IMG/VR virus record: IMGVR_UViG_3300010883_021048
Coordinates: 1 to 64,000 of that record
Strand: one strand, 5' to 3'
DNA from: a virus
Length of the DNA: 64,000 bases
In this document: one piece after another, positions 29,382 to 56,362 of the stretch
How the letters are laid out: each line of letters opens with the position of its first letter
How positions within the stretch are numbered: the first letter of the stretch is position 1
Translations under genes and position numbers: made by a program
The notes under the pieces: generated by a model
Databases searched by the model: none
What the model saw: only the letters and a program-made list of their open reading frames with translations
What the model was told of the DNA's origin: nothing

Positions 29382-31384
29382 AAAGGATCCTCGCTTTTAA
29401 CAGGCACTACTTCTTGAACTATAGATTTGTATCCACCTGTTCTCCTGCTATGCCATAAGACTTTCTTTGCCCACTCATAATTTTCCTGTATTCCAGAGCC
29501 TATAAACTCAATATCATTTTGTTCTTTTTTCAAAGCTGCCTTTTGCTCTATAACATTATGAATATTATATCCAAAAGATCTTGATTGAACACGCTCTCTA
29601 GGGTGGTTTAGTCTTGCATGCTGGTACATTAGGAGTTCTTGTAATACCTCTTCTTCTAGAGATATCTTAAGATGGTTTATCAGAAAGTTTGTAATATCTT
29701 TTTCAAAGCTTTCATAATCTAACGCAACTTTTATCGCGGTGGACTCATCGACACTCCAATTTATCTCAGAGACCTCAGGAACTACAATTCCCCAATGACG
29801 GTCATTTTGTAATATACTTTTCATATTATGCAAAATCAAGTGGTGCTCATCAGAAAGAAAAGACCCCTTGTCTTTATTTACATTGACATATTCAAGGAGT
29901 GAAGTGTAGAACTGCTTGTATGTAATACCTAAGTGGTTTCTAAGAAATCTAGATATAAATTGTGTGGGACCTAAGTAGTGTCCAAATATTACAAGCCATC
30001 TAAATTGGTGACCTTCAAGCCATTGTTCATGAGTAAACGTGTCTGTTTTAGTAACAAATTTAGATGTGTCTTCGCTCAACTTTCCGTCAATATGACGATG
30101 ATGAAAGCGTGGCTGTGTAACAGAGACTTCTATTCCGTATTTATTTATAAATTCCGGGCGACTGAATGGCGTATTAACAAGCGCAGTCATCAAATGGATA
30201 TCAAGGTAGTTGTGATAATCTAACTCTATGATTTTACATACACCATCGACAAATGTCTCGACTGTCTCTTCGGGAAGTCCCCATATGAGTTCAACGTAAC
30301 TTGATATATTTTTGCTTTCGTACATCTCGACAAACTCTTTTAGCTTCCCGCCGTCGACATTCTTTCTTTTAACAGCTTTTAAGACATCAGCATTCATCGA
30401 CTGTAGCGCGATGGTCATTCCCTTCTGGCAGCCGGCGTCTTCTAAAACTTTCGCAATTTCTAGTACTCTATCAGCTTGCCCTTTTACCCACGTAACTCTA
30501 AAAGCATGAGGGTAGCCAGTCTCTTCCTTCTTACTCTTAACGTACAAGGAGAGATCCATATCTAAATCATAATACATACCATAATTTGAATTTGCATCAG
30601 TAATATACTCTATCTTATTCTCTGTTATCCAGTCAATTTCTTGCTTGATCTTGTCGTAATTTTTGTATACTTTAGTGTAGTACTTTTCACCAATTTCACA
30701 AAATGCACATTGAAACGGGCACCCTCTAGCAGACTCAACAATAGCGCTGTATTCTAGACCTGAATCATTTTCTGATACAAGCTTATCATAGAAACCATTA
30801 AGATAAGGACTTTCATAGCTCTTTATGTCTTTTAGTCGGCTTCGTGGAATTTGCGGATGCTGTACTTTTCCATCGAAAAAAGTTATTCCAGCTATAGACT
30901 TATAGTCGGGATTTTGTGCTAACTTTTGTTCTAGTATCTCTACGAATGTAACTTCGCCCTCACCGTGAACCAAGATATCAACATAAGGATGATCCTCGAA
31001 AAAATTGCCTACTCTATCTGCTAGAGGTTGCTGCTGACCACCAAAAACTATTAAGCAGCCAGGATATTTTTCTTTTATACCTTTTGCTATCTTAAGATTA
31101 ATGTTCCAGTTCCATATAAAGCAAGAAAAACCTATAACGTCAGGCTCATGTATTTCTGATACTATCTCTTCATGTGGTTGACGATAGTAGAACCATTTCT
31201 TTAATTCATAGTTATCGGCAACTGCTTGATTTGCAAAAGCGTAAGAAGCCACGACACCTGTTGAGTATGGCAAATATACTTGGTTCGCAAATACGTCAGA
31301 CAACTCAAGCAGATACATATTTTTTTTCATGGTAGATATTTCTTTCCCATGAAGGAAGCTGTCATTAACTTCTTCTTTAGCCAC
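29378..31384 (-). CDS. B12-binding-type radical SAM enzyme, paralogue 2
   Basis: The 668-residue protein is colinear with the 657-residue enzyme at 25521-27494: shared VYLPYS-GV, FSCFIWNWNINLKIA, LIVFGGQQQP, VHGEGEVTFVEIL and SPYLNGFYD blocks. The radical SAM cysteines are C222, C226 and C229 in ARGCPFQCAFCEIG. The radical SAM barrel continues with ALQSMNADVLKAVKRKN and ELIWGLPEETVET. The differences are in the C-terminal third, which suggests a related reaction on a different substrate rather than recent duplication. It overlaps NadE by one base and the GT-A gene by four. Confidence 0.85.
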   Translation of the reverse strand: MAKEEVNDSFLHGKEISTMKKNMYLLELSDVFANQVYLPYSTGVVASYAFANQAVADNYELKKWFYYRQPHEEIVSEIHEPDVIGFSCFIWNWNINLKIAKGIKEKYPGCLIVFGGQQQPLADRVGNFFEDHPYVDILVHGEGEVTFVEILEQKLAQNPDYKSIAGITFFDGKVQHPQIPRSRLKDIKSYESPYLNGFYDKLVSENDSGLEYSAIVESARGCPFQCAFCEIGEKYYTKVYKNYDKIKQEIDWITENKIEYITDANSNYGMYYDLDMDLSLYVKSKKEETGYPHAFRVTWVKGQADRVLEIAKVLEDAGCQKGMTIALQSMNADVLKAVKRKNVDGGKLKEFVEMYESKNISSYVELIWGLPEETVETFVDGVCKIIELDYHNYLDIHLMTALVNTPFSRPEFINKYGIEVSVTQPRFHHRHIDGKLSEDTSKFVTKTDTFTHEQWLEGHQFRWLVIFGHYLGPTQFISRFLRNHLGITYKQFYTSLLEYVNVNKDKGSFLSDEHHLILHNMKSILQNDRHWGIVVPEVSEINWSVDESTAIKVALDYESFEKDITNFLINHLKISLEEEVLQELLMYQHARLNHPRERVQSRSFGYNIHNVIEQKAALKKEQNDIEFIGSGIQENYEWAKKVLWHSRRTGGYKSIVQEVVPVKSEDPL

Positions 31385-32139
31385 TATGAATCCCTTTCAA
31401 AGACAGGTATCGGTACCATCTTATGCTTGTTGGATCTATGAAACTTGTTATAAATTTCTAGTACTTCTCTCTCTCTGTCATTCACAGGCTCATTGTTAGG
31501 ATGCTGCATAGCCCTCTCTAGCTCATTGTATGTTGCACCTATTTGGTCTTCATCTGTTCTTCCATCATCCCACAGACCGTCGGTGGGGGGTGCGGTAACT
31601 ATAGAATCTAATACACCAAGTGACATTGCCATCTGTTTTACTTCTGACTTGTATAGATCAGCGATAGGAGATATGTCAACACCACCGTCACCGTACTTGG
31701 TAAAAAACCCAATCCCAAAATCTTCCACCTTGTTTCCTGTCCCAACCACTATACCGTTAGAAGTTGAAGCTATTTGGTAAAGCATCATCATCCTTAATCT
31801 TGATCGTGCATTTGCAAGGCTTAAGTCAGACGTTTCATCATCAGATAATGAAGAGCAAAACGAGTCAAACGTAGAAGTTAGATCTTTCGTTATGCTAACA
31901 ACATTTTTAGAATAATTTGATAGTAGCCACTCAGCATGGTCTATAGAGAGATCATCTTGCTTTTTTATCTGATGAATCGGAAGCCGTAATATAACAGTCT
32001 TTAATCCTGTCATCGCACAAAGAGTTGACACAAGAGAAGAATCTATACCACCAGATATTCCAACCACCAGAGCCTTTTTGTTAGCAGCCAAAGCGTATTT
32101 GCTTATCCAGCTTACTACGTCTTCTGGGGCTGGAATCAT
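31384..32139 (-). CDS. nadE: NH3-dependent NAD synthetase
   Basis: The protein has 251 residues. SGGIDSS at residues 29-35 is the ATP-pyrophosphatase P-loop. GTGNKVEDFGIGFFTKYGDGGVD and PIADLYKSEV are the most specific NadE blocks, and the late PPTDGLWDDGRTDEDQIG loop matches the substrate-closing segment. It amidates nicotinic-acid adenine dinucleotide to NAD+ with ATP. No glutaminase domain is present. It lies three bases after the UDP-sugar dehydrogenase, an NAD-dependent enzyme, and next to NAD(P)-dependent GDP-sugar enzymes. An NAD-supply role for the cassette or for the infected cell is plausible. A sugar-amidating relative is less likely because the NadE motifs are intact. Confidence 0.9.
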   Translation of the reverse strand: MIPAPEDVVSWISKYALAANKKALVVGISGGIDSSLVSTLCAMTGLKTVILRLPIHQIKKQDDLSIDHAEWLLSNYSKNVVSITKDLTSTFDSFCSSLSDDETSDLSLANARSRLRMMMLYQIASTSNGIVVGTGNKVEDFGIGFFTKYGDGGVDISPIADLYKSEVKQMAMSLGVLDSIVTAPPTDGLWDDGRTDEDQIGATYNELERAMQHPNNEPVNDREREVLEIYNKFHRSNKHKMVPIPVFERDS

Positions 32140-32141
32140 TT

Positions 32142-33365
32142 TTACCCTCCTACTCTAATTACCGTTATACCATCTTGATCAGCGATATAACGGTGGGGAT
32201 CGATAACAACAGATCCTTGCGGAAACGAAAAGTTTTTAAATTCTTCGTGTTTACATCCTATCAAGAAACAACTTGCAGCGAAAGCTGGCAACTCATCTCC
32301 CAATTTAGGATCATAGCTGGTCACTTCATGACCACGCTCAACTAATATATTCTCTAATAGTATAGCTGGCGAACCCAATATAAGATTGGTTTCTGGCTTA
32401 AATGATCTTCCCATTATAACCTTAGGGAGGTCATGTTCTTCCATCAGGTCAGCTAGCCAGTCTGTTTGCTTTTCTCTACAAATCATTAAACTTTCATACC
32501 AATCGTAGCTGACATCTAACTTCCTAGCTAGCCAAGATAAAGCAATATTGTCACGAGGATGGCAACCACCACCGTCACCCATACCACCTTGCATATATTT
32601 GGTACTAATTAATCTTTCTGTTGCTAAAAATAAACCGTCCATAACATTATCACAATTGACATTCTCTGACTTGTGCGCTACTTCCATAATGATATTCGCA
32701 AGACATATTTTCATCGTGATATAAGTGTTATAAGAAACTTTTATCATTTCGGCTTCTTCAATCGTACACTTATAAACAGGACGGTCATGAATAGTAGCGT
32801 AGAAGTCTCTAGCTGTTTCATAGGCCCCTTGATCATCAACACCAAAGAGAACAAACTCAGGTTGTGTAAAGTCTTTTATTGTGGTTCCCATCGCGATGAA
32901 GAAAGGATTATAGCATAGCTTTACCAATGGGCTGAGAATCGGCTTTATTTCTGACCTCACAGTACCGGGAAGTACTGTGGATATTATAATAACGATTTTC
33001 TCGTTGCCTTGAGCCTCTACCTCATTAGACAGTGTGCTGATCCCGGCTTTGAGCCAGGTGTAGTCAAAATCAACTCTCTCTTCTGGAATTCTCGTGGTTC
33101 CTTCGTATTTCGGATCATGCGGAGTCTGTATCGGAACAAAGATTATGTCTGAATTTTCTACAACTTCTTTAACACTTCCAAAATTGATGTTGTGTGTCTT
33201 TAAGAGTTCTGGTGCTCCTTCTTCTCTGTAGGGTAGCTCCTTTGTTTCTAAAATATTCTTAACATTTTCGTCTATGTCATAGCCCCAAACAGAGTGCCCT
33301 GCTTTCTCAATAGCCAGCGCACAAGGCAACCCAAGCTTCCCTAAACCAATAAAACCTACTCTCAT
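32142..33365 (-). CDS. UDP-glucose/UDP-ManNAc/GDP-mannose dehydrogenase family enzyme
   Basis: The protein has 407 residues. GLGKLG at residues 7-12 is the NAD-binding loop. TPHDPKYEG and EEAEMIKVSYNTYITMKI (the dimer and active-site helix) are diagnostic. The catalytic cysteine is C268 in GGGCHPRDN. In most UDP-glucose dehydrogenases the following block is C-x2-K-D; here the Lys is Arg, as can occur in divergent members. The enzyme oxidises C6 of a nucleotide sugar twice to a uronic acid. The exact sugar is not predictable. A good AAGGAG Shine-Dalgarno precedes the ATG. It opens the operon that runs through NadE to GMD. Confidence 0.85.
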   Translation of the reverse strand: MRVGFIGLGKLGLPCALAIEKAGHSVWGYDIDENVKNILETKELPYREEGAPELLKTHNINFGSVKEVVENSDIIFVPIQTPHDPKYEGTTRIPEERVDFDYTWLKAGISTLSNEVEAQGNEKIVIIISTVLPGTVRSEIKPILSPLVKLCYNPFFIAMGTTIKDFTQPEFVLFGVDDQGAYETARDFYATIHDRPVYKCTIEEAEMIKVSYNTYITMKICLANIIMEVAHKSENVNCDNVMDGLFLATERLISTKYMQGGMGDGGGCHPRDNIALSWLARKLDVSYDWYESLMICREKQTDWLADLMEEHDLPKVIMGRSFKPETNLILGSPAILLENILVERGHEVTSYDPKLGDELPAFAASCFLIGCKHEEFKNFSFPQGSVVIDPHRYIADQDGITVIRVGG

Positions 33366-33474: not shown

Positions 33475-34389
33475 CTATTTATCATGCTCTATCCCTTTAG
33501 CAATATAGTTTTCCTCAAATTGTCGCTGGTCTAAAGGTGGCTGGCCTCTTGAAAACATATTCATATAATATACTAACAAGCTACGATAGAATTGTTTGGC
33601 ATCAATAGGATTACCATGCTGCGTACAGCCATAACTATCTGTATATTTCATACCAAAATGGTTAATAGCTGTGGTGTGAAGCGGCCAGCGACCGGAAGAT
33701 ATTTCATATGTTGAATCTTCCAGCTTACATTCATTATCACTAGAAATTACACTCTCTGGTAGTTTATCCATACCAAGAATTTGTAGCGCTTGGTTAGCTT
33801 TCTCTAGAAATACTAGACTGGTTGGGTGCTGAGGAATCAGAAACAGATTTCTTTTTCCCATATTTTCTTCTATAAAAGAGCTAATCTTGATATCTGTAAC
33901 TTCTTCTTTTTGTCTAAGAATGCTTATCGTCTCTGCATGTCTTCTAGAGTATTCCCAATCTATCTTATCAGCGTCGTATAATGAAATAATATCTTCATCA
34001 GTTAAATTTTCCCTTAGACTCTCTATTACTTCTGAACCATACCATCTTTTACAACTAGCATAGTGCGCTGCTTGAGATATCGGCCAGAAAGCAGAGTAGT
34101 ATGTGTAGGGGAAAGATACCTTCTTACAGCTAGGCTTTAAAAGAGAGCCGATTGAATCCTTTACAGACGAATCAGTAGAATACTCACCGTGTCTTGCCTG
34201 TAGCGGCTGATACAGGAACAGGTCTGCTGTCTTAACGTGATCGTGATCTATCGTGTGCGCACCTTGCATGACCATCCAATTTGCGTATTGGTGTACTTCA
34301 TACACTTCTTCAAATTGCTTACTTTTCTGCATGAAATTAACCATGCCAGTGTTATGACAATTGCCCCAGAATACGGCTTTCTTCTTCAT
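33475..34389 (-). CDS. WcbI-family polysaccharide biosynthesis protein (putative acyltransferase)
   Basis: The protein has 304 residues. The N-terminal KAVFWGNCHNTGMV matches the GNCQ-type nucleotide-binding loop of WcbI-like proteins. TADLFLYQPLQARHGEYS and KVSFPYTYYSAFWPISQA fit the second conserved block, with its Q-P-L and F-P segments. A late IPQHPTSLVFLEKAN piece is also family-like. WcbI binds coenzyme A and is thought to acetylate capsule sugars. The gene shares a promoter candidate at 35302-35330 with the preceding GT-A-like gene and is followed by a short intergenic leader. Confidence 0.7.
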   Translation of the reverse strand: MKKKAVFWGNCHNTGMVNFMQKSKQFEEVYEVHQYANWMVMQGAHTIDHDHVKTADLFLYQPLQARHGEYSTDSSVKDSIGSLLKPSCKKVSFPYTYYSAFWPISQAAHYASCKRWYGSEVIESLRENLTDEDIISLYDADKIDWEYSRRHAETISILRQKEEVTDIKISSFIEENMGKRNLFLIPQHPTSLVFLEKANQALQILGMDKLPESVISSDNECKLEDSTYEISSGRWPLHTTAINHFGMKYTDSYGCTQHGNPIDAKQFYRSLLVYYMNMFSRGQPPLDQRQFEENYIAKGIEHDK

Positions 34390-35388: not shown

Positions 35389-36339
35389 TCATTTGCTCAT
35401 AATCTTTTCGACAGCCGGAAGATATACATTCTTAATAACGCTAGTCCATGAAAACGTCTCTGCGTACTGTCTTATTTCATGTCTCATAGATGAAGAAATT
35501 TCTGCATTTTCTTTGAGCACTGATTGTACGTAAGATGTATTTGTCATCATTCTTTCTGGAATAACATGTATAAACTCTTTGTCTAGATCTAAATTGCCGC
35601 AAGCAAACTCAGAAAGAACTAGACCCAATCCGGCAGACATGGCCTCCATGCAGACAAGAGGATGAGCTTCGCCGTCGCTGAGAAGAGCTAAGTTTGCGTA
35701 TCTTGTTAGATTATCATATAAATAGTCTTTACTCCATTCTCCAAGATACATGTCGGATGAAGCATTAAACCTGCTGTCTGCAATATTTCCTGCGTAGTAT
35801 AGGTCTTCTATATCTTGAAATATGTGTTGTCTTTTACGAAAGTCTACCTTTGCTAGGTACATTGAGCGATCTTTAAATTCACACTCTTCTGTGAACCTAA
35901 ACAAATCGTCCCTAACTCCGTTATGCACAACGTGTATATTTTCTTTGTTGAATCCGAGTGAGGAATAAATGTTGGCTATACCAGGAGAAAGAGCAAAAAT
36001 ATTAACGTCTGTACTTAAGAATGTCTGTAATATTCTTCTGTATCCCGGATCAAATCTATGGGGTTGCTCTAGATATCCATAGTGGCTCGTTATAGCTATA
36101 TTATCACAATTAATATGTGGTACAATATCTATATGTTCATCGTACTGCACGTGTACAAAGTCAGCATTAATAAGGTTTGTCTGTCTTATTATTTCATTCT
36201 TATCTCTGACATTTACAATGTGTACTTCATGACCTAAGTCTTCTAAGGAGCACCTCATATCATGAATTAATATTTCTACTGCGCCCCAACCCGTCGGTGG
36301 GATAGGCATAATCCCTGGTCCTATTATAGCAATCTTCAT
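35389..36339 (-). CDS. Glycosyltransferase, GT4-type
   Basis: The protein has 316 residues, short for GT4 (usually 350-400). The N-terminus is intact: MKIAIIGPGIMPIPPTGWGAVE with the glycine-rich loop of the GT-B fold, then ADFVHVQYDEH and ITSHYGYLEQP. The donor domain starts at HVVHNGVRDDLF and holds SDGEAHPLVCMEAMSAGLGLVLSE, where the usual first Glu of E-x7-E is replaced within DGEAHPLVCME. It is the last gene of the sub-operon that begins at 42204 and lies two bases after the GT6 gene. The sugar is unknown. Confidence 0.82.
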   Translation of the reverse strand: MKIAIIGPGIMPIPPTGWGAVEILIHDMRCSLEDLGHEVHIVNVRDKNEIIRQTNLINADFVHVQYDEHIDIVPHINCDNIAITSHYGYLEQPHRFDPGYRRILQTFLSTDVNIFALSPGIANIYSSLGFNKENIHVVHNGVRDDLFRFTEECEFKDRSMYLAKVDFRKRQHIFQDIEDLYYAGNIADSRFNASSDMYLGEWSKDYLYDNLTRYANLALLSDGEAHPLVCMEAMSAGLGLVLSEFACGNLDLDKEFIHVIPERMMTNTSYVQSVLKENAEISSSMRHEIRQYAETFSWTSVIKNVYLPAVEKIMSK

Positions 36340-36341
36340 TG

Positions 36342-37361
36342 TTACTGCTCCTTTTCTTTTGCTTCTTCCTGCTTTAGTTTTATCAAGCAGCTTTCACAGA
36401 TACAGAAGTTGTTCTTGGCATTGCCAGTTCCGGCACCATCTATTGAGATCGACCATTCTTGCAAAACAGTAAAATCCAACTCGCGAGTTTCAACTATACT
36501 ACAATTTGCGCACACGAATGGTACCTGGATATGGTGAGCATTAAGATTCCCTATCACTGTTTCCATTGAGTCTTGGGATATATCTGGTTTCCCACCCATA
36601 AATCTTGGAAACTCTGAATGAGGCTTATCAACATGAAGCATCATTGGAGTTAAGCCGGCGGCGGTTAGAACCTTATGCCAATGATGTTGGTCTGGCCACG
36701 CAAAGTTACAAGGTAGTGTGCGAATAAGATCATAATTTTTTAAAAACCAGCAGTTCATATGAGACTCATCATGCCAATCTGCGCACATATTTCTATTAGA
36801 ATCACCATCGATCATAAGCTCAAGTTCATTGATCATTTTTTCAACTACTGACAACTCACCTCCCCATAAGCATCCTTGATGGTAAAGTTTATCATTGAGA
36901 TATGATATGCCGTATTCACCTGACTTAAGGATATTTGCGTTACTGTCGCCCTCGACTATAAACGCGTTCCATTCTGGGTTCTCGAAATTGCCTGGGTGTT
37001 GAACTCCGACTATCGGCTTAGTACCGTCTCCGAAGATTGTATCATAGTCTATTTTCTCTAAAGGAAACAAATCTGCATCTAGAAACAACACATCATCTAT
37101 TTTTCTTTTTTTCATTTCTTCAAGAGAAGCTTTGATGAATTTAAACCTTAGTAAAGTAACAAACGGCCAGCGATGGTGAGGAATGATAGTGCGAACAACA
37201 TCGTCTTTTTTAAACATATCTTCTTCTACTCTGTCACTAAATGCAAAAATAGTCTTTTCACAATCATTTAACAGATTGGATGACACTGCTTCATACCACC
37301 TCGGAAAGAAGTCTGCGTACCTGGAGGTACCAATAAACACTAAACCTATATTCTTTTTCAT
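36342..37361 (-). CDS. Family GT6 (ABO-type) glycosyltransferase with Cys-rich C-terminal extension
   Basis: The protein has 339 residues. The GT6 hallmarks are in order: NIGLVFIGTSRYADFF at the start, HHRWPFVTLLRFKFI, FLDADLFP with DAD at 95-97, VGVQHPGNF, the substrate block YHQGCLWGGELSVVE, and WHDESHMNCWFL at 196-207, matching the WHDESHLN of blood-group A/B and alpha-1,3-galactosyl enzymes. GT6 enzymes retain anomeric configuration and add alpha-1,3 Gal or GalNAc, in mammals often to a fucosylated Gal. The DxD is kept, whereas characterised bacterial members have NxN. Residues 275-339 are extra and hold C284, C287, C320, C322 and C325, like a zinc ribbon. The GT11 gene lies two genes upstream. 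Confidence 0.85.
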   Translation of the reverse strand: MKKNIGLVFIGTSRYADFFPRWYEAVSSNLLNDCEKTIFAFSDRVEEDMFKKDDVVRTIIPHHRWPFVTLLRFKFIKASLEEMKKRKIDDVLFLDADLFPLEKIDYDTIFGDGTKPIVGVQHPGNFENPEWNAFIVEGDSNANILKSGEYGISYLNDKLYHQGCLWGGELSVVEKMINELELMIDGDSNRNMCADWHDESHMNCWFLKNYDLIRTLPCNFAWPDQHHWHKVLTAAGLTPMMLHVDKPHSEFPRFMGGKPDISQDSMETVIGNLNAHHIQVPFVCANCSIVETRELDFTVLQEWSISIDGAGTGNAKNNFCICESCLIKLKQEEAKEKEQ

Positions 37362-37369
37362 AAAAATTC

Positions 37370-38641
37370 CTAATTTTCGTTAGATAATGATACTTGCCAG
37401 CCGTATCTAGAGACATATTCTAAATTATTGTAGTAATCAACTAGATTTTCACAACTAAAGTCTTGTAATCTGTTCCAAAGCATTTCATTTTTTAAAAATG
37501 CAGGATTATATTTGCTACTGTCATTGCCACGAGGGTGCTCTAAGTGAACGACATATGATTTTGTCAGTCTAACAATCCGGCCACCCAGCTTTATAAAACG
37601 AAAATATCTTTCGACATCCTCTGCACCCCAAGACTTAAACTGTTCATTTTCGCCGCCGGCGGACTTGTAGAACTCAGTACGAACAAAGATACTTTGACCG
37701 TACGCAGCTGAATGCTTTATAGTATGGTCAGGATTTGCTAGCTTATAAAAATCATTCTGGAAAGTTGCTTGAATCAAAGCGCTGGAGACTTCCTTAACAT
37801 CAGAATTAAAAACACGAAGCTGATAATTTCCGTTGATGGCATGCTCATAAGGATATACAACATCAGCACCCAAACTGTGTAATGCACGAAGAGAAGAATC
37901 TATGCTAGCTGTCGGTAGTATTATATCGGCATCATGATTACAAACGTATAATGTATCGGCGAGATTAATCATCTTGTTTAAGTATCTGGTTCTATGAAAA
38001 GGCTCGCCGTCTTCTCGTAACTCGACAGTGCACTTTATTCTAGAGCGAAAGTTATTATATAGCTCGGCATCATTCGGCGTGATGACCGGACATGGGATAC
38101 CTAGATTAGTTGATGGTATACTATCATCTACGTAATTAGCAGCAAACTCATAAAAGCTTAGACTGCTATTCATATCAGAAGAAAAAGAAAATAGCTGCGG
38201 AAGCTCTAGGACTTTATACATAAAGAAAGTGAAGAAATCGGAAGTAGCACAATCAAATGCAGACAGATCTACAGGAGCCGGCTCATTCATAACATCATCA
38301 AGATGTGCATGATTCTGGATATAGTTTGTTAAGTCTTCAACATATTGAGAATCAGATTGCTCTCGGCGAGTCCCAAACCAACCGGGCATATTATCAGCAA
38401 TATTTTTTTTAGTATCACAAATATGAATGCGCAAATTTGCGTTAGTATTTAGTAAAATCCATGAAACAGTATAGGTTAGATTGTTAAATCTTTGACCACT
38501 ATCACCACCGAATGGTATCATAAAGGTAAGGTTTTTGTGATCTATTTTTTCGTCAAAACAATTCATAACGCTCAACGCTGAATCGATTCGAGGTAAGTTA
38601 CAGTCTGGCGGAACGCTTTGTCCTTCAGGAAACCATGTCAT
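37370..38641 (-). CDS. GT7/GT2-like glycosyltransferase (galactosyltransferase C-terminal motif)
   Basis: The protein has 423 residues. After an unrecognised N-terminal region of about 200 residues, YVCNHDADIILP provides a DAD metal motif. SIFVRTEFYKSAGGENEQFKSWG-AEDVERYFRFIKLGGRI carries the GG-x-NE-x-F-x-x-W-G-x-ED pattern of the beta-1,4-galactosyltransferase (GT7) C-terminal domain, also found in chondroitin-polymerase-type GT2 enzymes. A beta-linked Gal or GalNAc transfer is therefore plausible. This would place a Gal acceptor next to GT11 and GT6 enzymes that typically act on Gal. That link is inferred. The gene sits between GT11 and GT6. Confidence 0.72.
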   Translation of the reverse strand: MTWFPEGQSVPPDCNLPRIDSALSVMNCFDEKIDHKNLTFMIPFGGDSGQRFNNLTYTVSWILLNTNANLRIHICDTKKNIADNMPGWFGTRREQSDSQYVEDLTNYIQNHAHLDDVMNEPAPVDLSAFDCATSDFFTFFMYKVLELPQLFSFSSDMNSSLSFYEFAANYVDDSIPSTNLGIPCPVITPNDAELYNNFRSRIKCTVELREDGEPFHRTRYLNKMINLADTLYVCNHDADIILPTASIDSSLRALHSLGADVVYPYEHAINGNYQLRVFNSDVKEVSSALIQATFQNDFYKLANPDHTIKHSAAYGQSIFVRTEFYKSAGGENEQFKSWGAEDVERYFRFIKLGGRIVRLTKSYVVHLEHPRGNDSSKYNPAFLKNEMLWNRLQDFSCENLVDYYNNLEYVSRYGWQVSLSNEN

Positions 38642-38666
38642 TTGTTATATCCCTTATGATCATATT

Positions 38667-39479
38667 TTATGCAATTAGCCAGTGACTACAGTATATAGAA
38701 CTATAGTCTTTAGGCCCGGTGAGACCAAACCAGTCTTTTGGAGCTATTATTCGTGATGAATTAGACAACCATGCTGCCCACCAACTAAATGATGAATTCG
38801 CTATAACATGTGTATCACACATTGACATCATACACATATCCTCATATTGGTTTTTAGCATTAGAAAATGAAAACTCACTTGGCATATTTTTTTTGCACCA
38901 TTCAATATCATCAGAAAAAACCATGATATGAGTGTTGTCAAACGATGTGATGATATTATTTATGGCGATGTTATAGTAAGTTCCGTCCAGGTTTGTATGA
39001 TACTCTGGTTTTTCCGAGTAGTCACCTCTTCTAACATGCACGGCACAAAGGTTCATGTCTGGGATAAGACATCTTACTTTGTCTATTTTTAAAGCAGACG
39101 CAGATCTAACATCGCTAGCGAAATCGAATTCTTTCTTAATAATATCTTTGTTATGTCCGAAATAACTTTCTGACTGGAAAAATCCGTGAATGTCTGTATC
39201 ATCTCTAGTTAAGAATATATTAGGATCAAAAGCAAAGCTTGGCTCCCTGTATTGTCTGTCTATACTTTCCATACCAGAGGAGGAAATCACTTTGGCAGTT
39301 AATTGTGGAAATGCTTGAAGCAGCTCATATCTTCCCTTAAGCGGAAAATCAGATCTTTCAATCGAATCAGGAATAGCAAACTCAGTATCATAATGCTTGG
39401 CTAGAGACAGTAGCGTAGCATATTGAAACATTTGGTTTCCTAGTCTACCGTTTAATCCCAATCCGCTGTAGGTGTACAT
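38667..39479 (-). CDS. Alpha-1,2-fucosyltransferase-type enzyme, family GT11
   Basis: The protein has 270 residues, close to bacterial GT11 length. All family blocks are present: NGRLGNQMFQYA at 10-21, the GDP-binding HVRRGDY at 148-154, VFSDDIEWC at 187-195, and NSSFSWWAAWL at 228-238 followed by IIAPKDW. GT11 enzymes transfer fucose from GDP-fucose to O2 of Gal (H antigen). Some accept GDP-colitose. The phage also encodes GMD, Fcl and a ColD-like enzyme. Its start overlaps the stop of the GT2 gene by one base (both at 39479). Confidence 0.93.
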   Translation of the reverse strand: MYTYSGLGLNGRLGNQMFQYATLLSLAKHYDTEFAIPDSIERSDFPLKGRYELLQAFPQLTAKVISSSGMESIDRQYREPSFAFDPNIFLTRDDTDIHGFFQSESYFGHNKDIIKKEFDFASDVRSASALKIDKVRCLIPDMNLCAVHVRRGDYSEKPEYHTNLDGTYYNIAINNIITSFDNTHIMVFSDDIEWCKKNMPSEFSFSNAKNQYEDMCMMSMCDTHVIANSSFSWWAAWLSNSSRIIAPKDWFGLTGPKDYSSIYCSHWLIA

Positions 39480-40276
39480 TATTTTTCACCATGATGGAGA
39501 TGTCCATCTTTCTTCCATTGCCAATCGTATACTCTTTCTTCACGATCACCAGTGATTATAGATGTTTTCTTGTATAGTTCATAATATGTATCTGCTAGCA
39601 AGAGAGGAACCCTAGCGTCATAGTCATCACTTTTCTTTTGGGTATAATCGATTAATTTGTCAGGTAAATTAGCAAATGTAAAGTGTGGGAATGCTCGGAT
39701 CCAAAGATGCAAATCTTCTGCTAGTGGAAATATCTGTTCATATCCGCCCAATACATCTAACAACGCTCTAGAAAATATAACAGAAGGATGACAAATGGGA
39801 TTTTGTCCATACATCATCATTCCTTTAATTTCGTTATTTTCTTCCGGATATGTTACAGGAACTCCAAATGTTCCAACATCTTGAGGCTTACCGTTTTCAT
39901 CTAGCAAATTTATTTGAGTACCTAGCACATGTACGTCTGTGTTCTCTTTAAGATAGCTCATTTGCTTCTCTAATTTTTCTGGTAACCAATAATCGTCACC
40001 ATCCTGCCTGGCTATCCAGTCGCCGGCTGCTGATCTAAGACCGGTGTTTAGCGCAGGAACAATACCAGGTTTTGAACATTTTAAAATTTTGAGACCCGGC
40101 ATGTCTAAAAACTCGTTCTCTATAATCTCTATAGTGCTATCAGTGCAGTTGTTATCAACAACTATTGTTTCGAAATCTCGAAAAGTTTGATTCTTTATTG
40201 ACATCAATGAACGACGAATTGTGTCTTCGCAATTGTACAGCGGGATCACTATCGATACGGCGGGGCTTGTACTCAT
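39479..40276 (-). CDS. Glycosyltransferase, family GT2
   Basis: The protein has 265 residues. It opens with SIVIPLYNCEDTIRRSLMSIKNQTF and TIVVDNNCTDSTIEIIE, the canonical GT2 start. The metal motif lies in WIARQDGDDYWLPEKLEKQ (DGDD, the usual D-D-x-D). HPSVIFSRALLDVLGGY and AEDLHLWIRAF complete the acceptor side. It has no membrane segments, so it is a soluble, cytosolic enzyme. The four-base overlap with the upstream fusion gene and the one-base overlap with GT11 indicate coupled translation. Confidence 0.88.
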   Translation of the reverse strand: MSTSPAVSIVIPLYNCEDTIRRSLMSIKNQTFRDFETIVVDNNCTDSTIEIIENEFLDMPGLKILKCSKPGIVPALNTGLRSAAGDWIARQDGDDYWLPEKLEKQMSYLKENTDVHVLGTQINLLDENGKPQDVGTFGVPVTYPEENNEIKGMMMYGQNPICHPSVIFSRALLDVLGGYEQIFPLAEDLHLWIRAFPHFTFANLPDKLIDYTQKKSDDYDARVPLLLADTYYELYKKTSIITGDREERVYDWQWKKDGHLHHGEK

Positions 40277-42204
40277 TTTTCGTTTATGTCCCTGAATGCT
40301 TTTGGATGATTAGTGTTAATTGTTATATGCGGAACGCTACATGAGAAATCTACTTTTTCATGAAACACCCAGCCACCGAGTTCAGAACTAAGACGAGAGC
40401 TTAAAGCATCTATATCTTCATCCGTAACTTCAGACCATGGCTTATCAAACATCACGTTGTTTTCAGAAGTATCTTCAGTGTCATGTCGATATTGACTTTT
40501 CCAAAAAGACGCCCAATGTAGTTTGTACTGCTTTATTTTTCTAGATATATCGTACCAGGAATAGTGGTGGACTGAAGGTAACTGATCTATAGCTCTTTGA
40601 AACCAATCTTGGTATGCTAGCACAGCGTTATTATTTCCTGACAACCCGGCAGCACGAATATTGTGAGCTTGTTCGTTATAAAATCCTATGTGGGGAATTC
40701 TTTCTTTTGTTTCTGTATGGATGTAATCACATGTGTCAGTGCCTAAAGCAGCGAATATATTCCCTTCATCATCGAAACGCTGTAGCTCATTCGGAATTCC
40801 TTGTGTAATGAAATCTAGATTTCGACTTAGTCTCCATTTCCACGGGTTAACATCCATTCTTATTTTTTCATCGCCTCCCCAATATTCAATAACGGGTAAC
40901 GATACAACATCACAGTGTACAGGAAATGCCCTGAGTAGCTGATGTACTTTTTCATAGTCGTTTTCGTGCACTACTTCATCAGCGTCCATTTGCCAACAAA
41001 AATCGCTGGTGCAATAACTTCTGGCAGTAGCCTTTAGTTTTCCATCTGACTCGTAGGCAAAAGAAGGGTGATCGTTTAAAACAGGGTGCTGATATACTTT
41101 AAGCCTTCCGTCACCTTGAGCAGCAGACATTGCTTTTAATTCTTCCCATGTATCATCATCAGATCCACCATCCACCACTACAACTTCGTGACAGAAGCCA
41201 AGCATAGAAGTAACGGTCGCTTGCCACGGGTAGTTCATTCTGTTAGCATTTCTTACTGTCGTGTAACCGCTGACTGTTGATACATGATTTGATATGGATT
41301 TGATTGCTCTCCAGAATCGTTCTCGAGATGCGTATAAATACGACATCATATCGATATGTACTCCAGTGAACCACTCTTCCTTTGCATGCTGTACATCATC
41401 ATTAAGAATTAATTTGCAGCCTAATGCTTTTGCTTCTATAACCATCCTGGGACATGTGTCACCACCGCGTGGCATATACACGAAACCTTCAGATGTAGAA
41501 AGCTTTTGTAGCAGCTCATCATATGGAAGACCCCAGACGACTTCGTAGTCTAGATTGTTTTTCTTACAATAGTCTTCTGCATCTTCGAATCCTTTGATCC
41601 AAGATTCTGAGCCTAATACGATCCAGCCTTTTTTATCATCTTTATTCAAAGAATCTTTTACTGAATTCACATAGAGAAAAAAGCTTTCGTCGAATACGCT
41701 GCTTAGTACTACTGAGTCATTTTTTTCCAAAAATGGAAACCGTTCAAGATATCTTTTTTCTTGACTTTCACTCATCCACCAGAGACTCTTTGCTCCATGA
41801 AAGAACGCTGATATCATCTTACCATGAATTGACTCATGACAGTCACAGTCTTTCCCTGTTTCATTCCTGTGTTTCTCAATGCTTCTATATGCGCAGAATT
41901 TATAATCACATTCTACAATGGAATATGATAAGTTCCCTATTATGCTGGGAATTAGGTTTGGTCTCATTGTAGAAAAATTACAAAATACCCAATGCTTATC
42001 CGATCCAGCCTTAAGAAGATTCATGCTGATATCTTTAGATTTAATTTTTTGTACTACGATATCATTGGCCGAGGTTATCAAAGCTTCAGCTGTAAGTTCA
42101 GCTCCACCAACATAATCTTCCACGAACATATCTGAAACGAATATAACATCAGCGTTAGTGTCAATAGACAATGTACCGGCTGTATTGAAAGGACTGTTAA
42201 ACAT
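40273..42204 (-). CDS. Two-domain glycosyltransferase: GT-B/GT4-like N-terminus fused to GT2 C-terminus
   Basis: The protein has 643 residues. Residues of about 15-305 resemble a degenerate GT-B enzyme: VIFVSDMFVEDYVGGAELT (glycine loop), ASIVECDYKFCAYR-type middle strands, GWIVLGSESWIKGFEDAE, and the donor-like YMPRGGDTCPRMVIEAKALGC. Residues of about 310-520 are a GT2 domain: NYPWQATVTSMLGFCHEVVVVDGGSDDDTW and FCWQMDADEVV (DAD). The final 120 residues are helical. Both transferases could act in sequence on one chain. The first gene of the cassette, it follows a 214-base non-coding stretch and has a hairpin just before its GAGGT Shine-Dalgarno. Confidence 0.75.
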   Translation of the reverse strand: MFNSPFNTAGTLSIDTNADVIFVSDMFVEDYVGGAELTAEALITSANDIVVQKIKSKDISMNLLKAGSDKHWVFCNFSTMRPNLIPSIIGNLSYSIVECDYKFCAYRSIEKHRNETGKDCDCHESIHGKMISAFFHGAKSLWWMSESQEKRYLERFPFLEKNDSVVLSSVFDESFFLYVNSVKDSLNKDDKKGWIVLGSESWIKGFEDAEDYCKKNNLDYEVVWGLPYDELLQKLSTSEGFVYMPRGGDTCPRMVIEAKALGCKLILNDDVQHAKEEWFTGVHIDMMSYLYASRERFWRAIKSISNHVSTVSGYTTVRNANRMNYPWQATVTSMLGFCHEVVVVDGGSDDDTWEELKAMSAAQGDGRLKVYQHPVLNDHPSFAYESDGKLKATARSYCTSDFCWQMDADEVVHENDYEKVHQLLRAFPVHCDVVSLPVIEYWGGDEKIRMDVNPWKWRLSRNLDFITQGIPNELQRFDDEGNIFAALGTDTCDYIHTETKERIPHIGFYNEQAHNIRAAGLSGNNNAVLAYQDWFQRAIDQLPSVHHYSWYDISRKIKQYKLHWASFWKSQYRHDTEDTSENNVMFDKPWSEVTDEDIDALSSRLSSELGGWVFHEKVDFSCSVPHITINTNHPKAFRDINEK

Positions 42205-42418: not shown

Positions 42419-45400
42419 TCATACATAATATCCACTTAACTTAACGCTGTAACTAAGATATCCAGCAGTTGCGTAACCGTTGGTCTGGGTAGCATCACCT
42501 GTTTGTGCATATTCATAAAATATACTGGAAGAACTATCATAGATAACTTTATATCCCATATAGATTTTGCTACCAGTTGTTAATGTAACAGCCATGGCGC
42601 CTACACTACTCAGGTCGACATAATAAGATGTGCCTGGTTCTAAAGCGGCAATTTCCACACCAGCTTGATGATCTAGCATTTTATTTCCGCCATCGGCAAG
42701 AAGAGAGTCGCTTATATAGCTGGTGCCGGCATCGGCATTAGTGATATAAGACTCGGTAGGCCCTACTTTAGCGATGCTTATTAAGACATCTGCTGCCGCT
42801 GTAGCGGCGGCGTTGTTGGGTCTTAGTTTATGTTCACCATGACATGAAACCGTCATTCCAGTAATCACAAGGTTTGCCGGGCATGCCCATCCCATGCTAT
42901 TATACTGCTCAAATCTTTCAGTCGTAGAAGCGGGCTGCCATTTATAGGTACCGCTGGTGGAACCGTTCAACGTCGTGGATTGGTTTCTAACTTCGAATCC
43001 TTTGATATTATTCCAGTATGACACGTTCTTGTCACCAGTGGCTCCTAAGTTAGAAAATAAGTATCTACGAGCAGCGCCAGCACCGGTGCCATTAGTAATT
43101 TGGTTCGAGGAGTTGTTGACTAGTATATTTAATCTGTACTCATCTGTAGTAAATTTTTGTAATCTCTCTTTTGCAGCTGTAGTATATAACTGCACATCTT
43201 TCAACTTAGCGACGGCTGACTGAGCGTCAAGCTCTGGAGTATTATCAAGATTAAAAGTAAATCTGGTTATGAGACCATCATCCATTGTGATTGTATCGCC
43301 ATCCGCGGATAGAATAATATCACCAGCCGCGTCCAGCGTTATATTTGTGGTTTTTGATTTAACAAAATCTGTTGATAATTTACCACCGACTATAACATCA
43401 CCTACGGAATCCACTGTGGTAATCGCTATAGTACCATCAAGTGACTTAATAACGTTATCACCTAATGTAAGCTCTCCGTCTATCTTCGTATTTCCTGAGC
43501 CGTCAAAAGTGATCCCACTCGTCGCACCAGCATCTTTTATGTTATTACCAGCGACTGTAAGGTCACCCTCTATCTTCGTGTTCGCTGAGCCGTCAAAAGT
43601 GATTGTGTTAGCCGCGCCAGAATCTTTTATGTTGTTTCCGACAACGGTAATGTCACCACCAACCCGTATATCATCGCTAAACATTACCATGGTTGGAGAA
43701 ATTATCATCTTAACTGTTGGAGCTGCTGCGGCCGGAGCTCTAACAAAGAATGACATAGAAGAAGGAGATTTTGCTGTACCAGTATGATTAGCTGTGGCGT
43801 TCGCTTCTATATATGCTCCAACACGCTCTGACTCCGCAGTAAGCTGTGAGTCACTGCTCCACCATTGTATTCTACCCAGCGAATCGCCTAGTACTATAGC
43901 TGGACTTGAATGAGTATTAGAACCCCAGGTTACAAGATTTAAAGTAGGAGGGTTCCACAAACCGCCGGGCTTATTAGCCACCAGAGTCAAAGAGCCTGAC
44001 GGCATCTTTGTGCCTATAAGGTACTCACTGTTATCAACTTTTGGCCAACCAGCACCAGCCCCGGGTGTTGAACCAGATAGCATAATAATAGCGCCTTGGC
44101 CATCTATTCTGACTCTAGGTCTGGTAGAATTATCGTTGCCACTTTCATCATACATTCTAAAAGACATGTGTCCAGTACCAGTCGACTGCTTTTTAGACAC
44201 TGTGATATTAGCAGTATGCTTGTTAGGAGTAAATGCACTAGATATGTCAAAAGCTAATTGTGAATATACAGTACTTCCGCCGGCAGCAGAATTACCAAGT
44301 AGTAAATTCGCCTTCGTCAAATTTGATGTAAGCTGATCTGTCGTAGCATTCGTATGCTCAATATGAAAGCTGCCAGTTGGGTCCTGTGACCTGGGCAGAT
44401 TCGATGTCGGCCAGGTAGCGCCGCCACCTACACCGATTGATGTCGATGCTCCGGCTGAGTTGAATGTCATTGCCACCGTATTATCTTGGATCACACTACT
44501 ACCGACAGCCGCGCCTGTGATTCTAAGTGGCTTTGTCCCATGAGGTGAAACACCCATATGCCAACCGCCCGTGTTTTGAACACCAGTGTTTGACTTAAAG
44601 TCGAGCGTGAGTATTGGAGCGTTATCAGTTACAACAGTATCATGCCGTGAACGTAACATTACCCAAGAATTACGATTGGCTTCCGATGCGCTTACAACTA
44701 AAGACGCCGCCGGGTCATATGCATCTGTTCCAAAGCCACCACCACCGACTCTTACAGAGCGCATGTTAGCGTCAATCATTATCGCGCCATTTTCCTGTGC
44801 TGTTGAATTCTTTCGTATAGAAAAGTCAGCCGCGGAATTGGGACTAACAAATATACCAGGCTTATTTGTTACTGCTCCTCCACCATAATTAAATAAGATT
44901 GATGTAGTATTACCAGCGCCGTTTGCATCTAATTCAATGCCTACTCCGCCAGTATCGGAAGACACTCTAAGCGGGTATCCAATTTGATCGGCAAGATTAC
45001 CGTCAGTGGATGGACCAATTTGCACACCGTTTGGTGAATATAGTCTATTACCTGTAAACACATCACCTGTAAATTCTGCTCTGCCATTGGCACCAGATAA
45101 AACAAGGAATGCCCCCGCGGCCAATTGGTCAACGCCGGATGCGTTTGATTGGACCCTAAACTTTAAGTCTGTCCCTTGCTGATAACTACTAGTCCAATCT
45201 TGCGCAGCTACAGCTGTTATCATCGCTCCTGTATGAGGTGCCCCGGTTGCAGGACCCATTCCAGACCATATAATATCACCTATAGGATCGTGTGTCTGTA
45301 TACTGGTATCATTTCTGGTTAGCTGAAACGAACTAGATCCATCCGCTTGATTTGCCTGTATTGAACCGGTGATGTTAAATCCACCAAGGTGCTCAATAGA

Positions 45401-45454
45401 GCCTGTAATGCTAGCCCCGTGAGATGAGCTTAGTAATCTTGTAAATACTGACAT
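42419..45454 (-). CDS. Tail fibre protein with 30-residue repeats (1011 residues)
   Basis: The sequence is Gly, Ser, Ala and Asn rich and strand-like throughout. Around residues 590-690 a 30-residue unit repeats: GNNIKDSGAANTITFDG, GNNIKDAGATSGITFDG and a degenerate GDNVIKSL copy, each followed by an N-T-K-I-x-G and D-L-T-V strand. The matching DNA shows a 90-base direct repeat (for example GAGCCGTCAAAAGTGAT at 43496 and 43586). The C-terminal 180 residues form a compact, different domain, the likely receptor-binding tip. Its start overlaps the stop of the 1036-residue fibre by one base. The repeat type is shared with that protein, so the two probably form one fibre. Confidence 0.8.
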   Translation of the reverse strand: MSVFTRLLSSSHGASITGSIEHLGGFNITGSIQANQADGSSSFQLTRNDTSIQTHDPIGDIIWSGMGPATGAPHTGAMITAVAAQDWTSSYQQGTDLKFRVQSNASGVDQLAAGAFLVLSGANGRAEFTGDVFTGNRLYSPNGVQIGPSTDGNLADQIGYPLRVSSDTGGVGIELDANGAGNTTSILFNYGGGAVTNKPGIFVSPNSAADFSIRKNSTAQENGAIMIDANMRSVRVGGGGFGTDAYDPAASLVVSASEANRNSWVMLRSRHDTVVTDNAPILTLDFKSNTGVQNTGGWHMGVSPHGTKPLRITGAAVGSSVIQDNTVAMTFNSAGASTSIGVGGGATWPTSNLPRSQDPTGSFHIEHTNATTDQLTSNLTKANLLLGNSAAGGSTVYSQLAFDISSAFTPNKHTANITVSKKQSTGTGHMSFRMYDESGNDNSTRPRVRIDGQGAIIMLSGSTPGAGAGWPKVDNSEYLIGTKMPSGSLTLVANKPGGLWNPPTLNLVTWGSNTHSSPAIVLGDSLGRIQWWSSDSQLTAESERVGAYIEANATANHTGTAKSPSSMSFFVRAPAAAAPTVKMIISPTMVMFSDDIRVGGDITVVGNNIKDSGAANTITFDGSANTKIEGDLTVAGNNIKDAGATSGITFDGSGNTKIDGELTLGDNVIKSLDGTIAITTVDSVGDVIVGGKLSTDFVKSKTTNITLDAAGDIILSADGDTITMDDGLITRFTFNLDNTPELDAQSAVAKLKDVQLYTTAAKERLQKFTTDEYRLNILVNNSSNQITNGTGAGAARRYLFSNLGATGDKNVSYWNNIKGFEVRNQSTTLNGSTSGTYKWQPASTTERFEQYNSMGWACPANLVITGMTVSCHGEHKLRPNNAAATAAADVLISIAKVGPTESYITNADAGTSYISDSLLADGGNKMLDHQAGVEIAALEPGTSYYVDLSSVGAMAVTLTTGSKIYMGYKVIYDSSSSIFYEYAQTGDATQTNGYATAGYLSYSVKLSGYYV

Positions 45455-48400
45455 TAATCTTGATCCTCCAAAGGAGTTAGTCCCATTTTGTATTTTTTAC
45501 CGGTCAAATTATTAACAACAACCAACATATCTGGTTCCTCATATATAGTCCAATTACCACGATCATTTCTTAGATGAAGGTCGCCGGTATAGACATTGGC
45601 CCACCGGAAACTAGGCGACCCTAAATCGTAAGTATTATCAGCACCCGGGTATATGCTTCCTGTAACTTCCATTCTACCGCTGGTGGTACTGACAACAACA
45701 GATCCACCAGAACTGTTATTATGCAACCTTAATTTCTTAACCGAGTCTTCTGTAAGGCCGTAGATATATCTGGAATCATCTTGAAATCTTAGCTGATTGT
45801 TATTCTCAAATCTTGCGTTTGTACCAGAGCTGCCGGCCGCGAGTCTAAACACCTCTCCAGCAGAATTATGAAATCCTAAAGTGACGTCACTCACCATTTT
45901 TATTCTACTAGCACCTGAGCTTACAGATCCGGTGACAAAATCTAGACTACCACTTAGACCTAATACAACTTTATTATTTGTGGTACCCTTTATCTGAACA
46001 GGCGGAAACTGACCATCATAAGTGTTTATTATCGCGCCGGCGCCTGGGCTTAGAGTGCCGTATGCTGATCCTTGAGGCCCAGTGCTATAAGCATGATTCA
46101 AGCTCGATAAGTAAAAGGGCATTTCAGCTCTAAGCGTACCTGATACGTGAACATCCCCGCCGAATAGCGCTGTGGCTCTGGTTACCGGGCTTGAGCCGTC
46201 AGATCCAAGTGCACCACTGACGAAAAAGTATACATCATCTCCAATTGCAGTTGTATGACGTGGTGGTCCAGATGAAAGTATTCCAGTATCAAAAGAGAAT
46301 GAACCAGACGTCTTAACATATGAAGGCTCTCCTCCGCTTACGCTGAAGACCTCGGTGTTATCCGTAACAGATAGTGAGTTTAGATCAGTTAGTGTAACAG
46401 GTCCCGTATTATTGTCTTGGAACTTTAGATTATTCCCGTCTCTAAAAGCTCTAGTCGTCGAGTCGCTAAAGTGTATGTATGCCGTGGAAGAAGCAAGAGT
46501 TAAGTTATCTAAGTTTAGCACTCCGATGTCAGCAGTTCCGTTAATCTTTGTATTACCAGAAACTACCAGATCTCCTGCAACTAGAGTAACACCTCTAGTG
46601 TTCGTACCTCTAGAGCTAACGGATCCGCTTAATAGTGTTCGTACATCCCGGTGACGGGTCATAGAAAATAAGCTGTTCATCTGTGTAGCATTAGCGGCAG
46701 CCCCAAGGACTATAAATCCTTCCCTGCTTGTGCCGGCGCCGTATTCAGCGGAAGAAGATAACAGTATTGTAGGTCCACCAACAGCCTCGTTAGAAGAAGC
46801 ACTCATCATTAACAACGAAGTTGCAGGGCTCCCCGCCGCTCCCGGAACACCAGGATCGGAACCAACTTTTACACTAGCACCGCCCATGAAGAATGTGATG
46901 TCTCTATTGTCAGCTACCCCTGCAGCTGTTTTACCGTACACATAGCTTTTGCTGTTTTTAGGGAAGTACACCACTCCTTGACTACCATCACTACGACCAA
47001 CATTTAGCAATCCACCAAACCCGCCAACTGGACCTGTGATATCAACACCATTTGTATCATGTCCAGCGACTGTGTGGTTACCTAAAAATAACTTTTTATC
47101 TTGATCAATGTGAACGCCAGTGTTAACTTTAAACCTTAACGCTTCCGTTGTTATTAGTTTTATATCACCGTCGTTATTAGACATAGACATATGTGTAAGT
47201 GAACCAACTACAGATGCAGTGATTATTAGGTCAGCGCCCAAGCTCGGCAAAGAAAAACCGGCAGCTTCGATAACTACCGGCTCTGAATCAGCCAATGTAG
47301 TAACTACACCATCATTAACATCTTTTCTACCCGCGCGCCAGGAATTATTAACGCTTCCTCTACCGAACGTAAGGGCCTGTGGAGCCACGCTAGACCCTGA
47401 TGCGATAGCTATGCCACCATTACTATTGGTAGTAGTAGAACCTGACCCCATGAGGATCACAGGGTCTTCTACGCGTAAGTTCTCTACCCCTATTGAAACA
47501 GTGGAGCCAGAAACGTTTAAATCTCCTACAATGGTAACGTTTTTATTGAATGTGGCATCACCGGAACCGCTTAGGTAAATAACTGTGGCATTGCTTGCAT
47601 CTTTTATTTCATTACCATTAATTGTTAGATCGCCTGCAAGGGCAGTGTTTTGACTTCCGTCAAAGGTGATTGCTGCAGCGAGCCCAGAGTCGAATATATC
47701 ATTTCCGTTGACCAGCAAGTCTCCGATAACTGTGACTGCCCCGGAACTACCTAAAGTAAGGCACGCTCCACTTGCTCCCTTAATATCATTTCCTTTGACA
47801 GTTAAGTCACCTTCTACTGTAGTATCAACACCCGTAAAACTAAGCGCCAGTCCGGCAGATCCAGTAATACCATTGCTGGTTAGTGTAAAGTTTTTACCAA
47901 CAGATAAGTTACCACCTACATCTAAATCACCAGGAATCGTAAATGTTGACTCCGGTTCAATGCTTAGGTTACCAGATATGTGCAAATCACCGTCAAATAA
48001 TGCTAACCCTCGGTCATTTGAGCCCTTGACTCCTCTTGATCCCGAAACGTGAAAAAAGACATCACGATTAATAGCATTACCATATGTGAAGGTGTTGGAG
48101 GCACCTGCTACATGTTTAAAAGATATAGTGCCTGTACCGTTGGAACCGAGTGTCGGGGTGGTGGGATCAGCAAGAAATAACGCTTTTCCTGTGGTGGGGT
48201 TATTAGTAAATCCCTGGATTAGTTTGTTAGGTACCCTAAGATCTCCAAGGACTGTGTCATCAACTTCTACAACACTTCTTTCAGCCCAAAGCGTTCCGCT
48301 TACGACAACGTCACCCATAAATAGAACTGAGCTGCCATCGGTTCGCCCAGTTCCGTCAATGGCAGACATATTTCTAGAACCAGATACCGCCATCCAGATA

Positions 48401-56350: not shown

Positions 56351-56362
56351 TTTTTCCCCAAA

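Follow-up and report, generated by a model that had tools for sequence, protein, structure and literature searches.

A phage sugar island with linked GT11 and GT6 glycosyltransferase genes points to a probable histo-blood-group-like glycan cap

The stretch of DNA analysed here (hereafter the window) comprises bases 1–64000 of IMG/VR virus record IMGVR_UViG_3300010883_021048, which is 73,743 bases long and represents a fragment of a marine phage genome. On its minus strand the window carries genes for a GT11 enzyme of the alpha-1,2-fucosyltransferase family (38667–39479) and a GT6 glycosyltransferase (36342–37361), with a gene for a GT-A enzyme of the GT7C type between them (37370–38641). Our favoured explanation, held with moderate confidence, is that this phage produces a terminal glycan that is branched and histo-blood-group-like, on which GT11 would act first and GT6 second. 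All three genes are intact, with gaps of 25 nt between GT11 and the GT7C-type gene, 8 nt between the latter and GT6, and 2 nt between GT6 and the next gene, suggesting an operon-like arrangement.

The GT6 protein (339 residues) is a predicted retaining alpha-1,3-transferase of the DXD type. It passed the curated Pfam threshold for PF03414 (E=4.8e-10, 39.2 bits, cut-off 25) and was placed in phrog_3317 of PHROGs (7e-49); NCBIfam NF041524 was matched at 2.7e-37, but the score of 128 bits lay below the curated cut-off of 250. Sequence comparison with the PDB gave the bacterial enzyme BoGT6a (1.8e-12) and the human ABO transferases (~1e-7). An AlphaFold model (mean pLDDT 83.5) matched BoGT6a in Foldseek with TMt 0.81–0.86, followed by GTA, GTB and alpha3GT at TMt ~0.7, and all 50 PDB matches listed for the model were GT6 enzymes with the GT-A fold. 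The motifs DAD (residues 95–97) and WHDESHMN (196–203) lie in a catalytic core of approximately residues 1–250. The binding and catalytic residues known from BoGT6a (PMC3961637) are present, including the acceptor-site His122, Trp196-His197-Asp198-Glu199 and the C-terminal Lys246, with DAD (Asp95-Ala-Asp97) replacing the bacterial NAN. The core is followed by a cysteine-containing extension of ~90 residues (residues ~251–339, window 36342–36610; CANC ... CICESC), modelled with low to moderate confidence. This tail is the longest among the non-redundant viral GT6 proteins, with 136 residues after WHDESxxN compared with a median of 46.

The GT11 protein (270 residues) matched PF01531 (E=4.1e-33, 115 bits, cut-off 24) and phrog_2644 (7e-70), with no match in NCBIfam or, by sequence, in the PDB. 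It contains HVRRGDY and NSSFSWW, and the HxRRGDY/NSSFSWW residues are invariant or nearly so in the GT11 alignment. The initial annotation, which had assigned both genes to their families from such motifs, was right on both counts.

Next, we examined how GT6 and GT11 are associated elsewhere. GT6 loci were gathered by profile from IMG/VR and GTDB genomes, and GT11 was sought within them by profile, with flanks of up to 8 kb on each side. Although a scan of IMG/VR with the window GT6 as a single sequence gave no match, the profile scans did find GT6 loci. GT6 was counted in 71 phage records and 533 IMG/VR stretches, which amends the initial statement that the family is rare outside vertebrates and a few bacteria. 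Each scan represents the best 80 of several hundred matches (the best 80 of 204 for bacteria) and is weighted to the near relatives of its query. With viral loci ranked by likeness to the window, GT11 was present in 74 of 80, the six others being short on one or both sides; with ranking by similarity to cyanophage P-SSM2, it was present in 62 of 80. Bacterial loci, from several phyla and with GT11 on either side, gave 63 of 80. In cyanophage isolates and single-cell genomes, GT11 lay upstream of GT6 on the same strand, separated from it by no more than a few genes, in 12 of 12 loci. Cultured cyanophages with the pair include S-CAM9, Bellamy and P-SSM2.

After reduction at 85% identity, GT11 was found in 56 of the 59 non-redundant viral GT6 loci with full flanks. 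It was immediately upstream (the −1 position) in 35 of the 47 loci that had GT11 within five same-strand genes; 4.9 were expected and the maximum over 20,000 random placements was 14, in a simulation that takes loci as independent, which is true only in part. The converse association was rare, as GT6 occurred in only five of 79 GT11-seeded phage loci (5/54 when non-redundant). Such one-way asymmetry is expected if GT6 requires the GT11 product. A FastTree phylogeny built from 198 GT11 proteins required 16 changes of linkage among the phages, at least ten of them forced by supported branches, indicating numerous gains or losses of the pair. Because cyanophage sugar islands often contain GT11 in any case, finding both genes within 8 kb is by itself weak evidence; it is the adjacency, recurrence and one-way dependency that carry the argument. 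They strengthen the initial suggestion that GT11 feeds GT6 and would fit a place of GT6 in the ABO-type subgroup, which acts on Fuc-alpha-1,2-Gal acceptors. The survey also contained GT6 fusions, a GT2–GT6 protein in the 642-kb phage LR756502 and GT4–GT6 proteins (555 residues) in IMG/VR phages, several with GT11 downstream (L013, 9239–10831; L052, 7053–8720; L094, 7056–8723).

The phage enzymes form a distinct GT6 type. DXD was present in 52 of 54 viral GT6 sequences of a curated alignment, and in the window, whereas bacterial GT6 enzymes had NXN or related forms; a wider pattern count pointed in the same direction. Both viral sequences with NXN belong to short contigs from the human gut that carry a phage label. 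At the positions equivalent to GTA 266–268 (aligned by eye via BoGT6a), Gln-Gly-Cys is found in the window and in 40 viral relatives, and Ala-Gly-Gly in the P-SSM2 group. It has been proposed that GalNAc transfer requires glycine at 266 or 268 (PMC4692239), and by this rule the Gln-Gly-Cys of the window type would hint, weakly, at a preference for Gal.

The proposed pathway would start with mannose-phosphate enzymes supplying GDP-mannose to GDP-mannose 4,6-dehydratase (GMD), after which a short-chain dehydrogenase/reductase (SDR) of the Fcl type, with or without a ColD-type dehydratase, would yield GDP-L-fucose and/or GDP-L-colitose. GT11 would then place the 6-deoxy-L-sugar in alpha-1,2 linkage on a terminal Gal-type residue, and GT6, by a metal-dependent (DXD) retaining mechanism, would attach a hexose in alpha-1,3 linkage, possibly Gal and not GalNAc, to that residue, giving an H-to-B-like cap. 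The GT7C-type enzyme would probably extend or alternatively decorate the same chain. GMD (22464–23432, minus strand) was identified by TIGR01472 (3.3e-129, 431 bits against a cut-off of 415) and PF16363 (1.2e-122). The adjoining SDR (23433–24365, minus strand), with STCVYP and YAYAK motifs, could be a GDP-L-fucose synthase or a ColC-type GDP-colitose synthase; its best PDB match was a GDP-L-fucose synthase (6e-84), and its 249 bits to NF047922 were below the equivalog cut-off of 500. A eukaryotic/HAD-type phosphomannomutase (61824–62612, minus strand; PF03332 1.8e-39), which would act upstream of GDP-mannose, and a cupin protein resembling mannose-6-phosphate isomerase (59290–59640, minus strand; PF01050 4.5e-14) fit a GDP-mannose supply. 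No GDP-mannose guanylyltransferase was identified in the window annotation.

The initial annotation had named GMD and Fcl as a source of GDP-fucose. Both gene assignments stand, the second at family level, but fucose need not be the sole donor, as a ColD-type gene, which that annotation does not mention, is contiguous with them. This gene (24367–25524, minus strand) falls in the Pfam DegT/DnrJ family, but we rejected a plain aminotransferase because ColD was its best match (PDB 2gms, 3e-59; perosamine synthase, 5e-37) and because, within the pyridoxal phosphate (PLP) fold, histidine replaces the aminotransferase lysine. Its GHHLSTIEGG aligns with SHHIATMEGG of ColD with the catalytic histidine kept, predicting a GDP-4-keto-6-deoxymannose 3-dehydratase. 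ColD is part of GDP-colitose synthesis, and its place beside GMD and the SDR thus makes GDP-L-colitose a possible donor besides, or instead of, GDP-L-fucose. We therefore considered a version of the pathway in which GMD, ColD and a ColC-type SDR supply the donor and GT11, as an alpha-1,2-colitosyltransferase, produces a 3-deoxy-H structure capped by GT6. In line with this, a GMD–Fcl–ColD(HH) run also lies near GT11–GT6 in ACG-2014f and several IMG/VR loci. Moreover, both WbgN of E. coli O55, annotated for colitose, and human FUT2 accept colitose as well as fucose (PMC12409901; PMC11987014). However, GDP-L-fucose synthases are the nearest PDB relatives of the SDR, both donors may be made side by side, and ColD is missing from most GT6–GT11 islands that have GMD and Fcl (14, compared with six that have all three). 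GMD, Fcl or ColD-like genes were close by in 28 of the 59 full-flank viral loci. A GPHDN-type motif, tried as a marker to tell GDP-fucose from GDP-colitose synthases, was set aside because the column varies both with and without ColD. On balance the colitose version is a real possibility that we hold tentatively.

Several observations weigh against the favoured explanation. The window GT6 is divergent, with a best identity of 44% and a long branch (1.42), and it has alanine where Thr134 of BoGT6a contacts the acceptor-site GalNAc (equivalence judged by eye). The window pair is itself non-adjacent, being split by the GT7C-type gene. In a control with GT25, four of the seven GT25-bearing islands without GT6 had GT11, in a set of limited size (23 non-redundant loci) that overlaps with the GT6 islands. 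Finally, GT11 also holds an alpha-1,3-fucosyltransferase, HhFT2 (PMC4202792), so the linkage made by the window enzyme is not certain. Some of these points would suit an explanation in which GT11 and GT6 work on different residues of the same glycan, and their linkage reflects exchange of sugar islands with no substrate dependence. GT11 is common in such islands, another transferase separates the window pair, and the partners of GT11 vary, with GT7C-type homologues in 22 of the 54 non-redundant GT11 loci. Against this stand the strong −1 placement, the recurrence on the GT11 tree and the one-way dependency, as well as the bacterial loci, which show this coupling across several phyla with GT11 on either side of GT6. 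We regard action on different residues as rather unlikely.

The middle enzyme (423 residues, minus strand) had been called a GT7-like galactosyltransferase. Its position and GT7 C-terminal domain were borne out (PF02709 1.3e-6, 28.4 bits, cut-off 23; phrog_15655 9e-55), but we rejected the name galactosyltransferase. In Foldseek its model (mean pLDDT 75.9, with parts of low confidence) matched chondroitin polymerase, LARGE1 and ppGalNAcT before B4GalT, which first appeared at rank 25, and the enzyme need not make a Gal acceptor. The GT7C-type homologues in GT11 loci were often directly beside GT11, and none of the 22 loci had GT6, leaving the window as the sole viral locus among those sampled to combine GT11, GT7C-type and GT6 genes. 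Proteins weakly similar to the middle enzyme lie beside GT6 and GT11 in one bacterial locus (L285). In a related phage, L099 (254,743 bp), the gene order is large glycosyltransferase, GT2, GT7C, GT11, GT7C, and a methyltransferase-like gene (named by eye) holds the place of GT6, which fits GT6 as an exchangeable terminal decoration.

The island yielded no recognisable gene for an initiating sugar-phosphate transferase, flippase, polymerase or ligase, and as the record is a fragment (73.7 kb) this is no proof of absence; nor did a crude hydropathy scan of the island proteins find a convincing membrane segment, with three values borderline. The lack of such recognised genes points to a host carrier or surface glycan, or to the phage's own proteins, and most likely the glycan is built on a host carrier (lipopolysaccharide, LPS, or another envelope glycan) or directly on a phage structural protein, without phage-borne O-antigen export. 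LPS genes of cyanophages have been interpreted as a means of altering the host surface (PMC9602691), and virion glycosylation is documented in other phages, according to work cited in PMC12619734. We rate the host envelope and virion protein about equally, and DNA lower. Phage glycosyltransferases that build glycans on DNA are known (also cited in PMC12619734), and the island's lack of recognised export genes and convincing membrane proteins would agree with DNA or another intracellular substrate. However, the annotated parts of this fragmentary record, where absence is no proof, contain no recognised genes for nucleotide hypermodification, and the products of the GT11 and GT6 enzymes characterised to date are surface or secreted glycans, which leaves such a target improbable.

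The activities themselves have precedents. The characterised bacterial enzymes BoGT6a, WbnI and BgtA act on Fuc-alpha-1,2-Gal (PMC3961637; PMC4202792). In E. coli O86, WbwK (GT11) and WbnI (GT6) make a blood-group-B-like O antigen, in which Fuc-alpha-1,2-Gal is formed before the alpha-1,3-Gal is added (PMC4202792). In contrast with this bacterial O-antigen synthesis, the window genes are phage-borne, accompanied by a ColD-type gene but by no recognised export genes, and known from sequence. BoGT6a of Bacteroides ovatus (PDB 4ayj, 4cj8), the closest solved relative, shares the catalytic WHDE and the acceptor-site histidine with the window GT6, but it is a metal-independent NXN enzyme and an A-type GalNAc transferase (PMC3961637), whereas the window enzyme has DAD, and Gln and Cys at the donor-selectivity positions. 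Human GTA/GTB and FUT1/FUT2 belong to the same two families, with DXD in GT6, and the ABO transferases are ~18–20% identical to the window GT6 on structural alignment. The O55 WbgN and ColD pathway likewise joins a ColD-type dehydratase with an alpha-1,2 deoxy-L-sugar transferase, in a bacterial O antigen rather than a phage setting. We know of no GT6 step in E. coli O55.

Among phages, two cyanophages have been reported to carry GT6 (PMC3961637), and a further cyanophage, S-SCSM1, to carry an alpha-1,2-fucosyltransferase (PMC9602691). P-SSM2, for which the initial annotation had correctly noted GT6, resembles the window in that a single island combines GMD, nucleotide-sugar epimerases, GT11 and GT6. 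It differs in belonging to the Kyanoviridae, in its AGG-type GT6 (24% identical to the window GT6) and in having no GT7C-type gene between the two. We found no report of a GT11–GT6 pair in phages in the open-access literature. Earlier work had established GT11 plus GT6 activity for bacteria and, for two cyanophages, the presence of GT6 by itself; what is new here is the widespread, recurrent phage GT11–GT6 pair, the DXD phage type and, among the sampled viral loci, the GT11–GT7C–GT6 trio.

The three genes belong to a minus-strand island of ~20 mostly sugar-related genes, lying between two large repetitive proteins (42419–48564), likely tail-fibre-like by position and repeat content and with no Pfam match, and the genes for the sigma factor and baseplate. 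The phage is of the myovirus type, with recognisable baseplate wedge proteins and a late sigma factor. The gp6-like baseplate protein was nearest to those of Flavobacterium phage immuto, Microcystis phage Mel-JY01 and a 484-kb uncultured phage (28–30% identity), with no Kyanoviridae cyanophage among its matches. On the upstream side of GT11 lie a GT2 glycosyltransferase gene (39479–40276; PF00535 7e-29), which runs into the GT11 start by a single base and has a similar gene in the same place in L099, and a large glycosyltransferase gene with a C-terminal GT2 domain (40273–42204; PF00535 1.4e-7), similar to one at 4138–6060 of L099. A GT4 gene (35389–36339; PF13439 5e-7) follows GT6 after the 2 nt gap, with genes for a WcbI-type polysaccharide biosynthesis protein (33475–34389; PF18588 4e-23) and a UDP-glucose/GDP-mannose dehydrogenase family protein (32142–33365; PF03721 7e-23) farther on, all on the minus strand. 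The island also contains an NAD synthase gene (31384–32139; PF02540 3.6e-49) and two large B12-binding radical SAM proteins (25521–27494 and 29378–31384).

Outside the island, PrkA (AAA and kinase domains), SpoVR and DUF444 form a trio at 54419–58833 (PF08298 1e-136, PF04293 6e-120, PF04285 1e-103), a bacterial stress-type module in a phage, and 52853–54109 gave a weak GroEL-like match (phrog_5725, 1e-4). Just past the window end, at 4906–10363 of L415 (record 60001–73743), at least ~9 consecutive small minus-strand genes encode proteins that differ except for a common N-terminus like MKITKRQLRRIIREE, which may be a capsid-targeting or leader peptide.

Taken together, our results suggest that phages probably make ABO-like sugar structures, a view drawn from sequence. 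A bolder idea, which we consider rather doubtful, is that phages keep a recurrently assembled DXD-type GT11–GT6 unit and place branched ABO-like caps, built in this phage on colitose (3-deoxy-fucose) in place of fucose, on the virion or host surface as a counterpart of antigenic variation. GT6 has so far been described mainly from vertebrates and NXN-type bacteria, and a large phage reservoir of the DXD type tied to GT11 alters this picture. The pair gives a concrete handle on why lytic phages carry large sugar islands, and the survey yields a general prediction, namely that phage GT6 should need an acceptor Gal bearing an alpha-1,2-linked deoxysugar.

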